Part shown: positions 36,839-45,023 of the stretch, piece after piece | Position numbering within the stretch: the first letter of the stretch is position 1 | Layout: every line of letters starts with the position of its first letter | Origin: Entamoeba invadens IP1 | Lineage: Eukaryota; Evosea; Mastigamoebida; Endamoebidae | NCBI RefSeq assembly: GCF_000330505.1 | Contig: NW_004443648.1 | Span: 866,141 to 930,140, forward strand | Length of the DNA: 64,000 nucleotides | Direction: 5' to 3' | The notes under the pieces: generated by a model | Told to the model about the DNA's origin: nothing | The model's input: the letters and a program-made list of their open reading frames with translations, nothing else | Databases searched by the model: none | Made by a program: the position numbers and the translations under genes

Positions 36839-37651
36839 TCATTGGCTGTCGTTCACAGCAGACAAAAGTTTTAAGATCCTGTCCTTGCTAAGCTCGTTCT
36901 TCCAGAATCCGTCGACTTTGAAATACGATCCAACAATGATACCATCTGCCGACAACTGATATTCATTAATATTCTCTGGGGTGACACCAGACCCTACCAA
37001 GACAGGGATGGTGACAGCTTTCTTGACGTCTCTCACTTCTTGTGGGTCTGTTTTTACACCGGTGGATGTTCCTGTTACAATGAGGCCATCAGATAAGAAG
37101 TATTGTGCTGTTTTGGCAGTATCAGTAAGTGAAACATCGGCGGTGATCGCGTGGGCCGAGTGTTTCTTTTTTATATCAGTGAATACGAGGACGTCGTCTG
37201 CGCCAATCATCTTTCTGTATCTCAAAATCTCCCCAGCATTAGAGTCGATGTATCCTTCGTCGGCAACGTGTCCAAAGACAAAACCCTCGGCTCTAATGAA
37301 GTCACATCCTGAGCAAAAAGCGCTTGCGATGGCTTGTTTGTTCGCAGCAGCAAGAATTTGCACGCCAACTCTCAAGTTGCTCATCTGTCGTTTAATTTCG
37401 TATCCGACAATGCTCATTGCGGACGTGATTTCTGGTCCGGCGGTTGCGTTCAAGTAAGGGACGTCGTGCATGTTTTCAATAATGATCGTGTCCAACCCAC
37501 ATTGTTTGTAGAGTGATGCTTCTTCAACCGCTTTGTCGATGATTCCTCTAATTCTACGAGCGGTTGGTTGGTAGCTTGGGGTTCCCGGAAGTGCGTGGAC
37601 GTGGACCATACCGATGATCTTGTTGTGCCCAGCGAAAAATGAAGACGACAT
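36839..37651 (-). CDS. BtpA/SgcQ-family TIM-barrel protein
   Basis: 270 residues, one exon. The start IIGMVHVHALPGTPSY is the BtpA signature (GxxHxxALPGxP), followed by GLDTIIIENMHDVPY and later FVFGHVADEGYIDSNAGEILRYR, GLIVTGTSTG and ADGIIVGSYFK, giving a full-length family member. BtpA is needed for photosystem I stability in cyanobacteria, and SgcQ is a putative nucleoside-phosphate-type enzyme in bacteria; homologues occur scattered in archaea and animals. Its role in an amoeba is unknown. Patchy distribution suggests transfer or loss; codon use matches the host. Confidence 0.88.
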   Translation of the reverse strand: MSSSFFAGHNKIIGMVHVHALPGTPSYQPTARRIRGIIDKAVEEASLYKQCGLDTIIIENMHDVPYLNATAGPEITSAMSIVGYEIKRQMSNLRVGVQILAAANKQAIASAFCSGCDFIRAEGFVFGHVADEGYIDSNAGEILRYRKMIGADDVLVFTDIKKKHSAHAITADVSLTDTAKTAQYFLSDGLIVTGTSTGVKTDPQEVRDVKKAVTIPVLVGSGVTPENINEYQLSADGIIVGSYFKVDGFWKNELSKDRILKLLSAVNDSQ

Positions 37652-37837
37652 TTCTTTTCCAGTTCTTCTTTTTTTCTTTAATCAGAAAAGAAGCAAGTCT
37701 AAAAGAAAAAACTATTGTCGAACTTTCTAAAAGGATTATATGAAAGTAGTTTCCCAAAAAATGGCTCAGCAACAATCGTGTTTTGTTCACCTTTACAACA
37801 AAAAGTGTTGTCCCGACTGGAAATACTAAAAACTCGC

Positions 37838-38245
37838 TTAAGCACAGTCTCGCCAAGTCCCCAAGTCGAATCTGTGTCTGAGATTCATGTTACGGATGAG
37901 TCTGAACTGTTCTTTCTTTGGTAGTGTTTCGATGATTTGTTTCATTTTCAAATGAAGTTGTGGCAACAGTGCTCTGATCTTTTGGAGTTGTTCCAACTCA
38001 CTTTTCATTTTTGTTAACGATTTTGCTCTGTCGACTCTGGACGACCCCAACTTCGCAGCGTCTTCGTTCATGTCGTTGTCCGCATTCATCAATAGTTTCC
38101 TCTCCAACGCCTCAACCTCCTTCATCTTGTCTTCAATCGTTTGTACTTTAGTTTTCACCTCTTCTATTCCGGCCTGACCCATTCCGCTGATTTGATCCTG
38201 CGCGTAAATGGTTGCAAATAACATGAGAAAAACGATCGCTCTCAT
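37838..38245 (-). CDS. Secreted coiled-coil protein
   Basis: 135 residues from ATG 38245 (a longer frame starts at 38281 but would bury the signal peptide). MRAIVFLMLFATIYA is a clear signal peptide with cleavage after Ala-15. The mature part is helical with heptads (EEVKTKVQTIEDKMKEVEAL; KMKSELEQLQKIRALLPQL), ending in a basic segment. There is no retention signal or second membrane helix, so secretion or granule delivery is expected. No family is recognised. Confidence 0.65.
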   Translation of the reverse strand: MRAIVFLMLFATIYAQDQISGMGQAGIEEVKTKVQTIEDKMKEVEALERKLLMNADNDMNEDAAKLGSSRVDRAKSLTKMKSELEQLQKIRALLPQLHLKMKQIIETLPKKEQFRLIRNMNLRHRFDLGTWRDCA

Positions 38246-38474
38246 TTTTTGAAAATTATACTTTATAAGTTCCTTTTTCAAGTTTTTTTTGATTTTGGTT
38301 TTTTTTCAGAAATGTTCTTTTGATTTTTACTTTACTTAACAATAGTTTATTTTACCATAATTGTACTTTTATAACATTTGTTTTAGTATTAATAAGTATA
38401 AGTAGAACTAAAAGTTATATCAATAGTTTTTTAAATAGTAATAAATACTATTGATACTAACAAAACCGAAAGAA

Positions 38475-40463
38475 TCACCTAACGAAGTTGTTCATCATGC
38501 TTTCAAGCTGGTTTTGTCTAATAGTAAGCCGCTTAGCTCTGAATGTGAGGGAGTCTTGAGCTGATCTTTCAGCGTTGATCACTACAATGTAAGTTTGATC
38601 AGATAAAACAATAAAATTATATACACACCAATTCCATATGAACGAAAACAAACTTTTTGCGACTAAGAACTGTCCGAACTCCGGAGAGTGGACATAAAAG
38701 TCAGTGGTAATGAAAGGGGGTACGGGGGCGACTTCCTTTTTACACCAGATATTAACGGAGTACATGACTTGGTCTGGTGGATTGTGTTGATTCAGATCAC
38801 AACCGACGACGATGATAGCGTGGTTAAATTGTGTTTTGAAGCTTGTGATATCGATTGGTTCTGGTGTTCCGGTATACTCTTTAAATACGAGGACAACGAC
38901 GTCATTTCCGATGTGTTTCTTCTTATCGAGTTGTTGTTCATTGTTTTCCATATACGGGAGGTACGTCGAGACGTGGAAAGTGATTTCTATCTTTCCTTGT
39001 GAGAATCTATTAGCGACAAAGTACTCCCCCGTCAGTTTATTTTTTGTATCCAACCCACCTACAAAGCCATTGTATCCATACAATTTAGTCTTTTGTCCAA
39101 TTAATGTCAAAAAGTGTTCAAAATGCACCGACCCCGTCCTGTTATTATAAAACTCCATTTCTTTCGTTTGACCCGGTGCCGCGTACAACACGCCAAATTT
39201 GTATCTGTTATATGTGAAGAAATTCTCAAATCTGATAAGAGCGTTATACATAGCGTCCCCTCGAATCGGAAAAGTCGCCTTTTCTTTATAATCGACAAAC
39301 AACTCCTTCAATATTTGGTGGTCCGTTTTGTTCTCAAACACTTTTCGAGTGTCAAATCGTTTCGTTCTGATGATGACTTTTTTAATCTTTTTTTCGGTGT
39401 TCGGGGTATCATCTGAGATCGACACAATCGACGACTCGTTATCCGAATGAATGATGTAATTGTTATGTTCGTTTAATTTGAAATAGTTTTTATAATAATA
39501 TGAACAAGCTTGTGGGTCATGAATATTATTAAATAGTAAACTATCATATTTATGTGTTGTGCAAGTAAAATAATTTTCCACGTGACTTTGTGGCGGTAAG
39601 TTATCCAGTTCCACTAACACTGATTTTTGCATCATAATATTGTCCGTCCATGATTCGACTGGGAAAGTGATTGTTTCAAAAGTATCTGCAAGAGTCGTGA
39701 TGTCCACATCACTCATCGTTTTGTTCATATAATTCTCTTTAATAAATTTCTTTAATTTCTCAATTTGGCCCTTTTCCTCTGCAATTTGGAAGAGTGGTTT
39801 CCCGTTATAAATTTGGCCGATATTTGCTCCATATTTCAGTAATACTTCTAATGCAGCCGTATTTTTCTTAAGAACAGCAGAATATAACGGAAAAATGCCA
39901 GAATTGGTTTGATGATTCGCGTCCGACCCCGACTCACATAATAAACGGATAGCATTAACATCCATCGATCGGGTACACACATTCGTTAAAGCTGTTTCCC
40001 CAGCCAAATTCGCTTCATTGACATATCTCTTCCGACTCACTGAACCATCCATCGTCTTATCTTCCACGTCTAATATGACTTTCAGCGTTTCCGTGTTTTG
40101 ACCCAAGTTAGACACACGACACAAATAATGTAATGGCGTACTCAAACTTTCATTCTTCGCAGCTCGGTCAGCCCCTTTCTCTAATAACATCTCGACTATT
40201 CGCTTCTCGATCTTTTCCGCTGAAAGTGCTTTATGGAGGGGCGAGTATTGATTCTCATCTGAAATATTGGGGTCCGCCGATTTATTCAAAAGAAACTCGA
40301 CTAGTCCGACAAACGACTTCTCACACGCATAATACAAAAAAGTCCTCCCATTCCCATCGATATCATTCACACTCCCTTTCTTCATATATTTCACTATTTG
40401 AAGCTCTACTTCTTTTTCGGTATATGTCTTGACGCCCTTTAAAAGGTCGACTATTTCTCCCAT
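38475..40463 (-). CDS. Ankyrin-repeat RapGAP protein (downstream part of a probable fusion)
   Basis: 662 residues from the ATG at 40463. Residues 1-250 carry about six ankyrin repeats (YSPLHKALSAEKIEKRIVEMLLEKGAD as one unit, split here in sense only). Residues about 410-590 form a Rap/Ran-GAP domain: KFGVLYAAPGQTKEMEFYNN, GFVGGLDTKNKLTGEY, ITFHVSTYLPY and KKHIGNDVVVLVF. The catalytic asparagine-thumb Asn of HIGND is present, so it should stimulate GTP hydrolysis by a Rap-type GTPase. The frame stays open upstream of 40463 to a TAG acceptor at 40575 and encodes the end of an H-type lectin domain, so exon 2 of the full gene is 40574-38475. A separate start at 40463 is still possible. Confidence 0.85.
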   Translation of the reverse strand: MGEIVDLLKGVKTYTEKEVELQIVKYMKKGSVNDIDGNGRTFLYYACEKSFVGLVEFLLNKSADPNISDENQYSPLHKALSAEKIEKRIVEMLLEKGADRAAKNESLSTPLHYLCRVSNLGQNTETLKVILDVEDKTMDGSVSRKRYVNEANLAGETALTNVCTRSMDVNAIRLLCESGSDANHQTNSGIFPLYSAVLKKNTAALEVLLKYGANIGQIYNGKPLFQIAEEKGQIEKLKKFIKENYMNKTMSDVDITTLADTFETITFPVESWTDNIMMQKSVLVELDNLPPQSHVENYFTCTTHKYDSLLFNNIHDPQACSYYYKNYFKLNEHNNYIIHSDNESSIVSISDDTPNTEKKIKKVIIRTKRFDTRKVFENKTDHQILKELFVDYKEKATFPIRGDAMYNALIRFENFFTYNRYKFGVLYAAPGQTKEMEFYNNRTGSVHFEHFLTLIGQKTKLYGYNGFVGGLDTKNKLTGEYFVANRFSQGKIEITFHVSTYLPYMENNEQQLDKKKHIGNDVVVLVFKEYTGTPEPIDITSFKTQFNHAIIVVGCDLNQHNPPDQVMYSVNIWCKKEVAPVPPFITTDFYVHSPEFGQFLVAKSLFSFIWNWCVYNFIVLSDQTYIVVINAERSAQDSLTFRAKRLTIRQNQLESMMNNFVR

Positions 40464-41094
40464 TTTCTCCGATTTGGGTTTAATAGGACAGTAAGCGATC
40501 CAGAAATAGAATGATCCTTCACTTTGTATTGGCGAAAATTGGTTTGTCTTTAATATAAATCCGTTTTGTGAAGGCTATGTGTTATTGGATTCAATTAGAA
40601 TTGATCGTGTTACTACTGCTATAGTAATTAAATAATTTAATTATAAATGAAATAATAAATTTAATTATAAAGTTAGTATAGAGTTACTATAAAATTATAA
40701 AGAAATACATACAAACAATTATACACGAGTTGTCCAGTTTGAAGATCGTTGGGTTCAAAAAGCAGACGACTTTTGGGATCTCAGGAAATTGTGTTCCATA
40801 AGTCACCGCATATGTGTCGTTTGGTTTCAACACTTTATCGATTTTACCACAACAAAAGCGTTCGCCTCGTTTAGGAAAGTAGTTAATGAACGTTCGATAT
40901 TCTTTCACCAAATTCTGACTTTGAAGAAAGCCGGCCTCGTACGTCTTAATCTTTTGTTTCAGCTCGATGTTCTCTTCTTCAAGTTGAACACGTGCCACAT
41001 CATACTTGTCTTCATCAATCGACTTGTTTAAAGTAGTCGATGAAACATCGCTTGTACATCCGGGAGATGTAACAACTCCAGACTCTAATGACAT
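40464..41094 (-). CDS. Coiled-coil plus H-type lectin domain, N-terminal part of the probable fusion
   Basis: Exon 1 is 41094-40717 (126 codons): a Ser/Thr-rich start, a coiled coil (VQLEEENIELKQKIKTYEAG), then the first half of an H-type lectin-like domain (YAVTYGTQFPEIPKVVCFL). A GTTTGT donor follows at 40716. A TAG acceptor at 40577-40575 (142-base intron, phase 0) leads to NGFILKTNQFS and SFYFWIAYCP, the expected second half and C-terminal WIA motif of the fold. There is no stop after it: the frame continues through PIKPKSEK into the ankyrin-RapGAP at 40463. Without splicing, the lectin half ends at 40687 in non-homologous residues. The whole spliced product would be 825 residues. Confidence 0.68.
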
Positions 41095-41675
41095 CTTAAT
41101 TATAGAGTTCTTTCTATTTAAATTTTATTTACATATCAAGTTATCGAGTTTTTAGCTTTCTAACTGATCACTTCCATTTGTAGTGTTTTGGGTATCTATT
41201 GGTCGAAAACTAAATAATTTCTTCTATATTAAATAACATTTTATATAACATTCTTTGGCTTCATAATCTTGTCTTCTCTTTTTTTTGAATTGTAATTTAA
41301 CTATTAATATAGTACTATTTGTTTATATCATTGTTTGTAAAAATAAAACTATTTGGGTTGTTTGTATAGCTTTTTATACTATTGTTTCTTTTTGATGGCA
41401 ACACAAAAGACCACTTCACCAGTTTTGTATTGTGCTTTTGAAATCTTCGTTCCGCAATCCTTTTAGCATTTAAAACGACAGTTAATCATTTCTATTGTTA
41501 TTGTATTATAAAAAATATATTTGAATACCATTAAAAATTTATTAAATTTATATATCTGTTTATAACAGCAAAAAACACCAAAAAAACAAACAAAATGTAT
41601 TCAAACGACGTGTTACCACGTGTCGTACAAAAGGGAGTGTTGCTTTAAAGGGAAGAACCTTAAAGTCATTTTACA
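41095..41675. other. AT-rich spacer before the second DnaJ gene
   Basis: Holds a stop-interrupted mini-frame at 41379-41489 (minus, listed separately) and, at 41608-41619, a 12-base GACGTGTTACCA also present 287 bases upstream of the first DnaJ ATG. Confidence 0.45.
41379..41489 (-). pseudogene. Mini reading frame broken by one in-frame TAA (Cys-containing)
   Basis: From ATG 41489 the minus strand reads MINCRFKC, a TAA at 41465-41463, then KDCGTKISKAQYKTGEVVFC and a short basic end to TAG 41379. The Cys spacing on both sides of the stop suggests one small zinc-binding sequence. It may instead be a terminal exon with acceptor AAAAG right after the TAA. The segment is GC-richer than its flanks. 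Low confidence. Confidence 0.3.
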
Positions 41676-42991
41676 ATGTCAGACAGTGATTACTACGACA
41701 CACTTGGAGTTTCTAAGAATGCCAATGATGAAGACATCAAGCGGGCGTACAAGAAATTGGCTATGAAGTATCACCCCGACAAGAATCCGGGCAACAAACA
41801 AGCCGAAGAGAAATTCAAAGAAGTTGCTGAGGCGTATTCCGTCTTAAGTGACCACGAGAAAAGACGGACGTACGATTTGTATGGGAAAGATGGGTTGGGA
41901 GGAGTAACGAGGGAATACGACGCGAATGATGTGTTCCAACAATTCTTTGGTGGTGGGGCGGATGATTTTGGGTTTGGTTTTGGGTTTGGGCACTTTGGAA
42001 GCTTTGGCCGCTTCACGAGTTTTGGACCGACTTCGTATATGTCTGAAGAGTCGAAGGAGACCCGTACCAGTCGCGTCAAAAATATCGAAGTTGAAGTCCC
42101 CGTCACATTGGAGCAGATGTATTGTGGTGCGACAATGAAAAGGNNNNNNNNNNNNNNNNNNNNNNNNNNNNNNNNNNNNNNNNNNNNNNNNNNNNNNNNN
42201 NNNNNNNNNNNNNNNNNNNNNNNNNNNNNNNNNNNNNNNNNNNAAATTGCTTGTCATGTAATGGAAAAGGATACATCTATACGTCGGGACGAACAAGACC
42301 GGGGTCGTATTATCAATGCAACAAAACGTGTAGCAAGTGTAAAGGAAAAGGAAAGTATCTTCCCGAACGAGAGAAGTGTATGTTCTGTGACGGCAAATTG
42401 GTTCAAAACATCGATAAGAACTTTGTTGTGAAACTGCAAGTCGGAGAACACAACGGTGGGTATCAAGTGTTAAAAGGACAGGGAAATCAATACCCCGGAC
42501 AAGAGGCGGGGGACATCAAATTCAAATTTGTGGAGCAGAGACATCCCGTTTTCAGAAGAAGCGGAAACGATTTGTATATGGAAAAGACAATTGGACTTGG
42601 ACAGGCACTCACTGGTTTATCTTTTGTGGTGAAACAACTAGACGGAAGAGAGTTACTTCTCGGTTATAATGATGTGATCCAACCAGAGACAACACTTGAG
42701 GTAAAGGGGGAGGGATTCATTCAACCATTATCGTCAACACGGGGAGATCTGTTCATCAAATTCACGGTAATCTTCCCAAAGATAGAGGAAATTCAGAAAA
42801 ACTTAGAAGAGCTTAAAAAGGTGTTGCCATTTACTGAAGGAATGGTAACGCGAACGGGAAATCAAACACCATTATTAATGACTCGTTCGACGAACAAAGG
42901 ATTCCCAGAACAGAAAAAGAACGAAAAGCGCAAACAAAAGAAGAAACACTACGACTTCTTTGATTTGGATGGGGACAGTATTTTCTATTGA
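41676..42991 (+). CDS. Second type I DnaJ/Hsp40, interrupted by an assembly gap
   Basis: The J domain (HPD kept), a Gly/Phe linker ([14 protein letters not shown]) and the start of the first C-terminal domain are read before the gap; the frame after it begins in the zinc-finger region ([23 protein letters not shown]) and continues to the end. By comparison with the first DnaJ, about 23 residues (some 70 bases), including the first CxxCxGxG motif, are missing, so 100 N is a placeholder. Unlike its paralogue it has no CaaX box; the tail is basic and ends DGDSIFY, so it is probably soluble. Outside the shared 108-base tract the two genes are clearly diverged. Confidence 0.9.
41744..41851 (+). 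repeat. 108-base tract shared with the first DnaJ gene (copy 2)
   Basis: Same tract as 24336-24443, one synonymous difference. It covers the second half of the J domain. Confidence 0.9.
42144..42243. other. Assembly gap (100 N)
   Basis: Exactly 100 N, the usual placeholder for a gap of unknown size. It falls in the zinc-finger region of the second DnaJ. The frames on its two sides differ under the 100-base length. Confidence 0.98.
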
Positions 42992-43128: not shown

Positions 43129-44973
43129 TCAAACCAATTTCTTCAAATATGGTTTCCCTTCCAGAGGCGTTCCCGTAAGATCATAAACGTTCCACGGATA
43201 TCCCACAGCTTCTTTCACTACATCCCTCAACCGATTTTCTCTGAGTTCTGGAAGTCCAAATTCGTAAAATTCAACTCTTATCTGTCCTTTGTTTCTTTCA
43301 ATCAAACTGATTGTTTGCGAAACCTCTTGGTCGTTTTGCTTTTTCAAAACATCTTTAAGAATGTTGATCAACAAATCGTCCGTTAAATGAGGACAGACGT
43401 CGAGACGAGCTTCAGTTGACAACAAAATTTTCTGGGAGAGCATCAACACTCTTCCTATTTCTTTAAGAACAACCAAATTGTCTTTCTCTGGTAGGTCATT
43501 TTTCCACTTCACCTCCAATTCACCAACCATCCCAACTAAAACCTGGATTTGCACACCAGTTATCATTGTGCAATGGCCGTTCACAACTTCCTCCCCCATA
43601 CAGCTGTTGAACAACACAAAAGAGTCGTTCAACAATATTGATTTGAATGGTGTTGATAGTCTACAATCTCTTGCCATCATGAGTATTGACATCAGTTCTT
43701 TTATGATCGGACGTTCATTACAATTGAGCCTGAAACACTCCTCAACTGCTTTCACCATTCTTGCGCGAATAAGTTCCATCAATCTTCCGTGGCATGCCAT
43801 CAATGACCTCTGCAGCTCATTGACAAACAAGAAGAGAAAGTCGTTGCGTTGTTTCTTCGCGAGTGAATCGTATAACACAATGAGTCTGCTGAGTGTCGAG
43901 TATAAATAAAAACACGACTTAATTGGAACAATGTCTGCAACAACAAATCCGTACAGCTCATTTGAAACAATCGGAGGCAGTCCATTTGACATTGTGAAGA
44001 CATCAAGTGGTAGGGATGAGTAAACCATTTGCGCCAAAATTGTGTTTTCTGACGTTTTTGCTTTTTCCTCCATTTCTAAAAACGAAGTGTATTTCTTCAT
44101 GTCGGCGATCAGTTGTTCTTCTTCGGGTTTCAGCACATCGCCGCTCTGCTTTATGCTTTTTCTTTTTGATGTTTCCAGATTAGACTTAATTTGTGAGCAG
44201 TCTGCCGTCGACCTTCTCATTCTCATCATTGACATTTGTTTTCTTGTCAACGCACTTTCGTTGAAAGGTTGCGGAGATGACACGGGTGCAGCAGTTGATG
44301 GTGACACCGTCGACATCGATAGTTTATTCAATTGCGGTGGTTGAACCAATTGTGGTAAATCGGACGTGTCAAGGGAAGTATTAGCTCCTCTCCTGTGCTT
44401 GACCTCGATTGCCTTTCTGTTAGTGATGACTGAGGAACTTTTTGTAGTTTTCAACTCCTTTTTCCCGTCCTTTCTGATAGTTTGTTCTGCCAGTGGTGGA
44501 GATTGTAGAGATTGAGCAGATGACGAAGAGACAAAAGCAATTTTGAGATGAATCAAATAGTTACTTTTAGTATTATTTTGTGATACTGCCTTTGTGGTTT
44601 CAATGATTTTTTGTGAGTCGCCTGCCTGTTCGAAAAAGTCTGAGAGATTAATAGTAGTTGATCCCACATTCGTATTTCTCGCCGAAAGTGTGATTTTCAT
44701 GACTTTTTCTTTCAATCCGTTTTTTGTGTGTTGGAACGTCGACAAAAACGAAAACGTTTCTTGAATCTCAGAATTCAAACTAATCACTTTCGTTGATCCA
44801 TTATTATCTCCACGTTCCCAAATCACTTTCACAGACCCCCCACTTTCTATTTTATTTTCCACTCGCGTCACAGTGACTTGAACAGTAGCTTTAATGTTGT
44901 GTGTTTTCATCTCAACTTTAGTGGTCTTGTTTGTATTTCCCGATGACGAAAAAAAAAAAATGTTTTTCAACAT
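43129..44973 (-). CDS. NT-C2 domain protein
   Basis: 614 residues from ATG 44973 (an apparent start at 44988 is a TTG). Residues about 20-165 form an N-terminal C2-like (NT-C2, EEIG1/EHBP1 type) domain: ATVQVTVTRVENKIESGGSV, VKVIWERG, then GSTTINLSDFFEQAG, typical of peripheral membrane adaptors. A Ser/Thr/Pro-rich linker runs from about 165 to 290. The C-terminal 320 residues are helical (LFLFVNELQRSLMACHGRLM; ARMVKAVEECFRLN) and resemble a helical cargo or motor-binding module. A run of 12 A on the plus strand at about 44950-44961 encodes Phe/Lys codons just after the start and could shift frame if miscounted. Confidence 0.72.
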   Translation of the reverse strand: MLKNIFFFSSSGNTNKTTKVEMKTHNIKATVQVTVTRVENKIESGGSVKVIWERGDNNGSTKVISLNSEIQETFSFLSTFQHTKNGLKEKVMKITLSARNTNVGSTTINLSDFFEQAGDSQKIIETTKAVSQNNTKSNYLIHLKIAFVSSSSAQSLQSPPLAEQTIRKDGKKELKTTKSSSVITNRKAIEVKHRRGANTSLDTSDLPQLVQPPQLNKLSMSTVSPSTAAPVSSPQPFNESALTRKQMSMMRMRRSTADCSQIKSNLETSKRKSIKQSGDVLKPEEEQLIADMKKYTSFLEMEEKAKTSENTILAQMVYSSLPLDVFTMSNGLPPIVSNELYGFVVADIVPIKSCFYLYSTLSRLIVLYDSLAKKQRNDFLFLFVNELQRSLMACHGRLMELIRARMVKAVEECFRLNCNERPIIKELMSILMMARDCRLSTPFKSILLNDSFVLFNSCMGEEVVNGHCTMITGVQIQVLVGMVGELEVKWKNDLPEKDNLVVLKEIGRVLMLSQKILLSTEARLDVCPHLTDDLLINILKDVLKKQNDQEVSQTISLIERNKGQIRVEFYEFGLPELRENRLRDVVKEAVGYPWNVYDLTGTPLEGKPYLKKLV

Positions 44974-45023
44974 TTTGAAAAAACTCAAAATCGAACTAAA
45001 AAGATCTCAAAATTTCAAATGAT

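Follow-up and report, generated by a model that had tools for sequence, protein, structure and literature searches.

Does a regulator of the small GTPase Rap in Entamoeba invadens truly begin with a lectin-like domain, or have two neighbouring genes been read as one, and what would such a domain do in that position? The question is raised by a minus-strand locus at 38475-41094 of a 64,000-nucleotide stretch of the E. invadens IP1 genome (contig NW_004443648.1, positions 866,141 to 930,140), hereafter called the window, whose numbering is used throughout. An initial annotation had read from this locus a coiled coil, a lectin-like domain, ankyrin repeats and a Rap GTPase-activating protein (RapGAP) domain, and proposed as an alternative that a small lectin gene had lost its stop and reads into its neighbour. 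The comparisons described here support a single gene with the order N-terminal helix, H-type-lectin-like domain, ankyrin repeats and RapGAP. The gene is already known, as it is deposited and named as a RapGAP; its lectin-like front domain seems to have gone unnoticed so far.

A single gene in three exons

The gene consists of three exons (41094-40717, 40574-38654 and 38581-38475). Exon 1, whose 126 codons correspond to residues 1-126 of the deposited protein P0006, encodes an N-terminal tail, a predicted long helix and the start of the lectin-like domain. Intron 1 (40575-40716; 142 nucleotides, GTTTGT...TAG, phase 0) lies inside that domain, and exon 2 encodes its remainder, the ankyrin repeats, a dimerisation-like segment and the bulk of the RapGAP domain. 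Intron 2 follows (38582-38653; 72 nucleotides, GTTTGT...TAG, phase 1), and exon 3 completes the RapGAP region at its C-terminus (INAERSAQDSLTFRAKR...) and carries the stop. The spliced product of 801 residues is letter for letter identical to P0006, the deposited E. invadens IP1 “rap GTPase-activating protein, putative”, in which the residues of intron 2 are absent. The first exon and intron stand as they were initially annotated, with their donor, acceptor and matching phase. The length first given, 825 residues, is corrected to 801 by the removal of intron 2, which was missed because it contains no in-frame stop; its removal also yields the RapGAP C-terminus K-MINAERSAQ..., as in relatives. 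A 47-nucleotide version of this intron with a GTGTGT donor was considered and rejected, as it shifts the frame, and the 72-nucleotide intron fits the deposited protein instead.

The frame at 38475-40574 is indeed open 5′ of the ATG at 40463: it starts PSQNGFILKTNQFS...SFYFWIAYCP, the long frame after intron 1 beginning with PSQNGFILK. This internal ATG, together with an in-frame TAG immediately 5′ of exon 2, would suit a pair of adjacent genes, or a small lectin gene without its stop reading into an ankyrin-RapGAP gene, and because of that TAG the fusion at this locus needs splicing. The deposited gene model, on the other side, is that of a single gene. Exon 1 has a GC content of 0.40, against 0.18 in intron 1, and when it is compared with its counterparts at two further loci of the same genome, L017 and L018, differences are commonest at the third codon position (46, 40 and 76 at positions 1, 2 and 3 over 124 codons for L017; 56, 51 and 78 over 126 codons for L018).

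A family of fused proteins

The same domain order recurs at four further loci in the genome (L017, L018, L019 and L020). L018 lacks intron 1: its N-terminal tail, its lectin-like and ankyrin regions and most of its RapGAP domain lie together in an unbroken reading frame of 773 codons; no splice assumption is therefore needed for the fusion there, and for the family the reading as two genes is contradicted. In all the other family loci, four of the five, intron 1 is found at the same place and in phase 0, with a conserved Phe (F132 in the window protein) as the sixth residue 3′ of it. When spliced at sites of the same type, L017 (800 residues) and L018 (793 residues) give exactly the deposited proteins P0008 and P0002, the intron-1 acceptor of L017 having been picked from two, one codon apart, after P0008 was known. 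L019 and L020 are models made in this analysis, without comparison to deposited proteins.

Full-length relatives with the lectin-like front exist in E. nuttalli (P0003 and P0005) and E. marina (P0007), to which P0004 is added. The orthologues found are thus single fused proteins and not pairs of separate genes, and the order first annotated here is present in other Entamoeba species. It is common to all nine family members examined, that is, seven deposited proteins and the models of L019 and L020. In the tree of these nine, the closest partner of the window gene is L017 (100/100), with E. nuttalli P0005 next to the pair at a less supported fork (85/97), and P0003 and P0004 cluster with L018 (100/99); L019 and L020 are long branches that meet, and their placement is unsure. 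At least two fused lineages appear, from this topology, to predate the split of these Entamoeba species. Furthermore, when the 36 sequence pairs are compared, identity in the N-terminal region (residues 28-160) tracks identity in the ankyrin region (correlation 0.95) and in the GAP region (0.96). A free-standing copy of the domain was not found, in searches of limited reach, since one of them failed to recover L019 and L020 as well, although these are known; among 1292 candidates from a large protein collection, no short relative of residues 1-175 appeared at E<=1. Because of the shared order, the open frame of L018, the in-step divergence, the third-position bias and the identity with the deposited protein, two genes or a lost stop are very improbable.

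The widest protein search (E<=1e-40), in which scoring was confined to the 7996 candidates with the most shared words and relatives outside Entamoeba may have been missed, returned 44 proteins, seven with Rap_GAP (six from Entamoeba, and P0004) and 37 ankyrin-repeat proteins without it. For the Entamoeba RapGAP family to which the window protein belongs (P0002, P0003, P0005, P0006, P0007 and P0008), the precomputed Pfam list names ankyrin-type and Rap_GAP domains only, leaving the front domain unnamed, and a search of open-access PubMed Central yielded no publication that describes either the lectin-like domain or this domain order. The initial statement that no protein with this order had been described agrees with that literature, although the protein itself was already deposited as a RapGAP. 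InterPro, SUPERFAMILY or Gene3D may already flag the fold.

The fold of the front domain

The lectin-like domain is divided between exon 1 (residues 76-126; 40717-40869) and exon 2 (residues 127-160, with FYFWIAYCP; 40473-40574), and both parts are recognised by profile match and in a structure model of the L018 counterpart. The H_lectin profile (PF09458) matches seven of the nine domains when these are excised, with a best E of 2.7e-5 (24.7 bits) for P0003, the only one above the cut-off of 24; the excised window domain reaches 14.4 bits and that of L018 an E of 0.0077. In the profile check proposed with the initial annotation, most of the family's excised domains thus resemble H_lectin, one of them just over the cut-off; the window domain stays below the cut-off and the retained-intron form of the window protein gives no match at E<=1. 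Whole P0003 likewise drops to 19.4 bits. As a control, none of eight reversed domain sequences matched H_lectin, and one of the eight matched the unrelated DUF6017 at E 0.062. A six-frame genome scan with PF09458 returned nothing at E<=1, because the domain is interrupted by intron 1 at four of the five loci and is weak at L018, where it is intact.

The domain is predicted to be all-beta. In the model of the L018 counterpart, with block values of the predicted local distance difference test (pLDDT) of 80-89 over residues 21-90, the first three VIA ranks are taken by discoidin II (twice) and discoidin I, and H-type lectins occupy eight of the first 16 rows. The profile alignment to the lectin SLL-2 is not significant (E 0.33 and 0.32), and in it the F..P, gF and WiA positions are aligned, so that the invariant F103, P107, F132, W151 and A153 fall on conserved SLL-2 places. 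Could this be an unrelated beta domain, or a member of a wider, phage-fibre-like fold class, merely resembling H-type lectins? PHROGs matches are weak, the best of them (0.0037) being to a tail-fibre family; against such a reading, the tally favours H_lectin, seven of nine to two of nine, the best score (2.7e-5) is also that of H_lectin, the discoidins rank first in the structure matches, and the invariant residues coincide with conserved places of SLL-2. We regard this alternative as unlikely, if still deserving some weight, and the domain as having probably an H-type fold.

Ankyrin repeats and the RapGAP end

The ankyrin repeats, at about residues 184-407 (40403-39732), are matched by PF12796 (E 7.1e-31; 107.1 bits against a cut-off of 27.3) and other profiles, and correspond to predicted helices with block pLDDT of 70-92, and 58 in the last block. 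Residues 485-540 give a weak Rap-GAP dimerisation match (E 0.0052), whose 17.6 bits fall short of the cut-off of 27. The RapGAP domain starts at residue 602, with its exon 2 part at 38654-39149, and runs on into exon 3; PF02145 matches it at E 3.7e-43 (147.7 bits against a cut-off of 27, in the retained-intron form of the protein) and Rap1GAP (1srq) at E 8.1e-33. The full-length structure prediction, with a mean pLDDT of 57.7 and poor outside the ankyrin region, was used for secondary structure only; Foldseek with this model has Rap1GAP and ankyrin-type entries among the matches listed. NCBIfam matches all lie far under their cut-offs, mostly between the ankyrin region and effector models, with one NifX-associated.

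The resemblance to Rap1GAP (PDB 1srq, 3brw) extends over almost all of the solved chain (16-315 of 341, aligned with residues 361-661 of the open reading frame) and includes the HIGND helix with the catalytic Asn; unlike the window protein, that chain contains neither ankyrin repeats nor a lectin-like domain. In the window protein the catalytic helix reads KKKHIGND, in which K678 and H680 keep Rap1GAP K285 and H287, while R286 is replaced by K679, a Lys found also in L017, L019 and L020. Asn683 (codon at 38904-38906) is the counterpart of Rap1GAP N290, the asparagine thumb, described as essential for activity (PMC7804450), and this Asn is present in all nine family sequences. The window protein is, by these likenesses, probably a Rap-inactivating GAP. 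The most divergent paralogue, L020 (G000:C189:225866-228132), has Leu at the conserved H287 position and keeps the Asn; its GAP activity may be altered.

The RapGAP set of this genome is large, with 36 PF02145 matches, some of them apparently separate exons of one gene. The lectin-like front was found at five loci only in a genome search at E<=10.

Does the domain bind sugar?

In Helix agglutinin, the residues contacting N-acetylgalactosamine are taken here to be R63, W83 and Y89, a set for which a source was sought and none found. The window protein has K, F and E for these, so the set is not kept there. At the Arg63 position (Lys119 in the window protein) the family has K in seven of nine, R in L020 and S in L019. 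At the Trp83 position the window protein has F, six sequences have G, one has S and one shows a gap; at the Tyr89 position five sequences have D, the window protein and L019 both have E, and of the other two one has H and one K. The alignment in the loop concerned is uncertain. The domain is therefore named H-type-lectin-like and not H-type lectin, and it may not bind sugar. Compared with discoidin I/II, Helix pomatia agglutinin and SLL-2, with which it shares the F..P, GF and W-I-A positions and which are among the top structural matches of the predicted fold, the window domain lacks these contact aromatics, its loop before the Lys119/Arg63 position is five residues shorter, and it is joined to signalling domains in a protein without an evident secretion signal.

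A working intracellular lectin, whose binding of cytosolic glycans or glycoproteins would couple glycan state to Rap inactivation, would be in line with the H-type resemblance of the front domain and with a basic residue at the Arg63 position in eight of the nine sequences. There is also a precedent for an amoebozoan H-type lectin on a protein of cytosolic type, namely Acanthamoeba castellanii, where such copies are joined to an inhibitor-of-apoptosis domain; the partner domain is different there, the lectin copies are several, and no RapGAP is mentioned with them (PMC4053784). The makeup of the Trp83 and Tyr89 positions argues against it, with the assumed contact role and the uncertain loop alignment to be borne in mind, and we consider this reading rather unlikely. 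Of the glycan-binding fold first proposed for this Rap regulator, the H-type resemblance is retained and the contact residues named above are mostly absent. In a more particular version, a cytosolic H-type lectin domain whose site is altered (Lys for Arg63, and neither Trp nor Tyr for stacking) would recognise a glycan, or a partner bearing one, within the cell and so make Rap inactivation ligand-dependent. This version is distinctly unlikely; if true, amoebae would possess a small-GTPase switch of a new, glycan-controlled kind.

A proposed role for the N-terminal head

Rap signalling controls how amoebae adhere and move, and H-type folds assemble as trimers or hexamers. For HPA, a hexamer is described (PMC11377244). 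The highest 19-residue hydropathy in the window protein is 1.1, with no membrane-like stretch, and its N-terminus has no strong hydrophobicity, which points to a cytosolic protein. We consider it reasonably probable that this is a cytosolic 801-residue RapGAP whose N-terminal helix and lectin-like fold serve oligomerisation or targeting. The helix, presumably a coiled coil, and the H-type-like domain would form an N-terminal head for either purpose, the ankyrin repeats would act as an arm for partner binding, and the clustered GAP domains would be placed where Rap must be switched off, thus lowering Rap-GTP locally. Sugar binding would be possible, yet unnecessary to such a role.

Two points call for caution here. 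The long helix (residues 28-70; 40885-41013) is predicted with block pLDDT of only 34-61, so that of the coiled coil initially annotated the helix is recovered, whereas its coiled-coil state is read from a low-confidence prediction. Moreover, “lectin-like” has to be tempered, as it denotes a resemblance of profile and of predicted fold.

Neighbouring genes

Directly 3′ of the RapGAP gene, at 37838-38305 on the minus strand, lies the frame of a small protein whose start resembles a signal peptide (MRAIVFLMLFATIYAQ, judged by eye) and whose body is charged; it has no Pfam match at E<=0.01. Further on, at 36839-37681 on the same strand, an uninterrupted frame belongs to the BtpA family (PF03437, E 1.4e-64), which is found mainly in bacteria and archaea; the gene was possibly acquired by lateral transfer. 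On the other side, a DnaJ-like gene (by eye), which contains a stretch of unreadable residues, is divergent from the RapGAP gene on the plus strand (41664-42991). It is followed on the minus strand (43129-45006) by a 625-residue frame with an NT-C2 domain (E 1.2e-9) and, below threshold, a match to DIL (E 0.0022); its product is one more candidate for an adaptor of membrane or cytoskeleton.

Implications

The front domain slips under whole-protein Pfam cut-offs, and an exon-wise genome scan misses even the unsplit paralogue L018. The family would represent, as far as its sequences tell, a RapGAP subfamily with a repurposed H-type-like domain, found only in Entamoeba in the searches made here. 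Such a conserved subfamily, with an unannotated lectin-like front, offers a testable route to how Entamoeba positions Rap inactivation, and a way to ask whether lectin folds were reused intracellularly.
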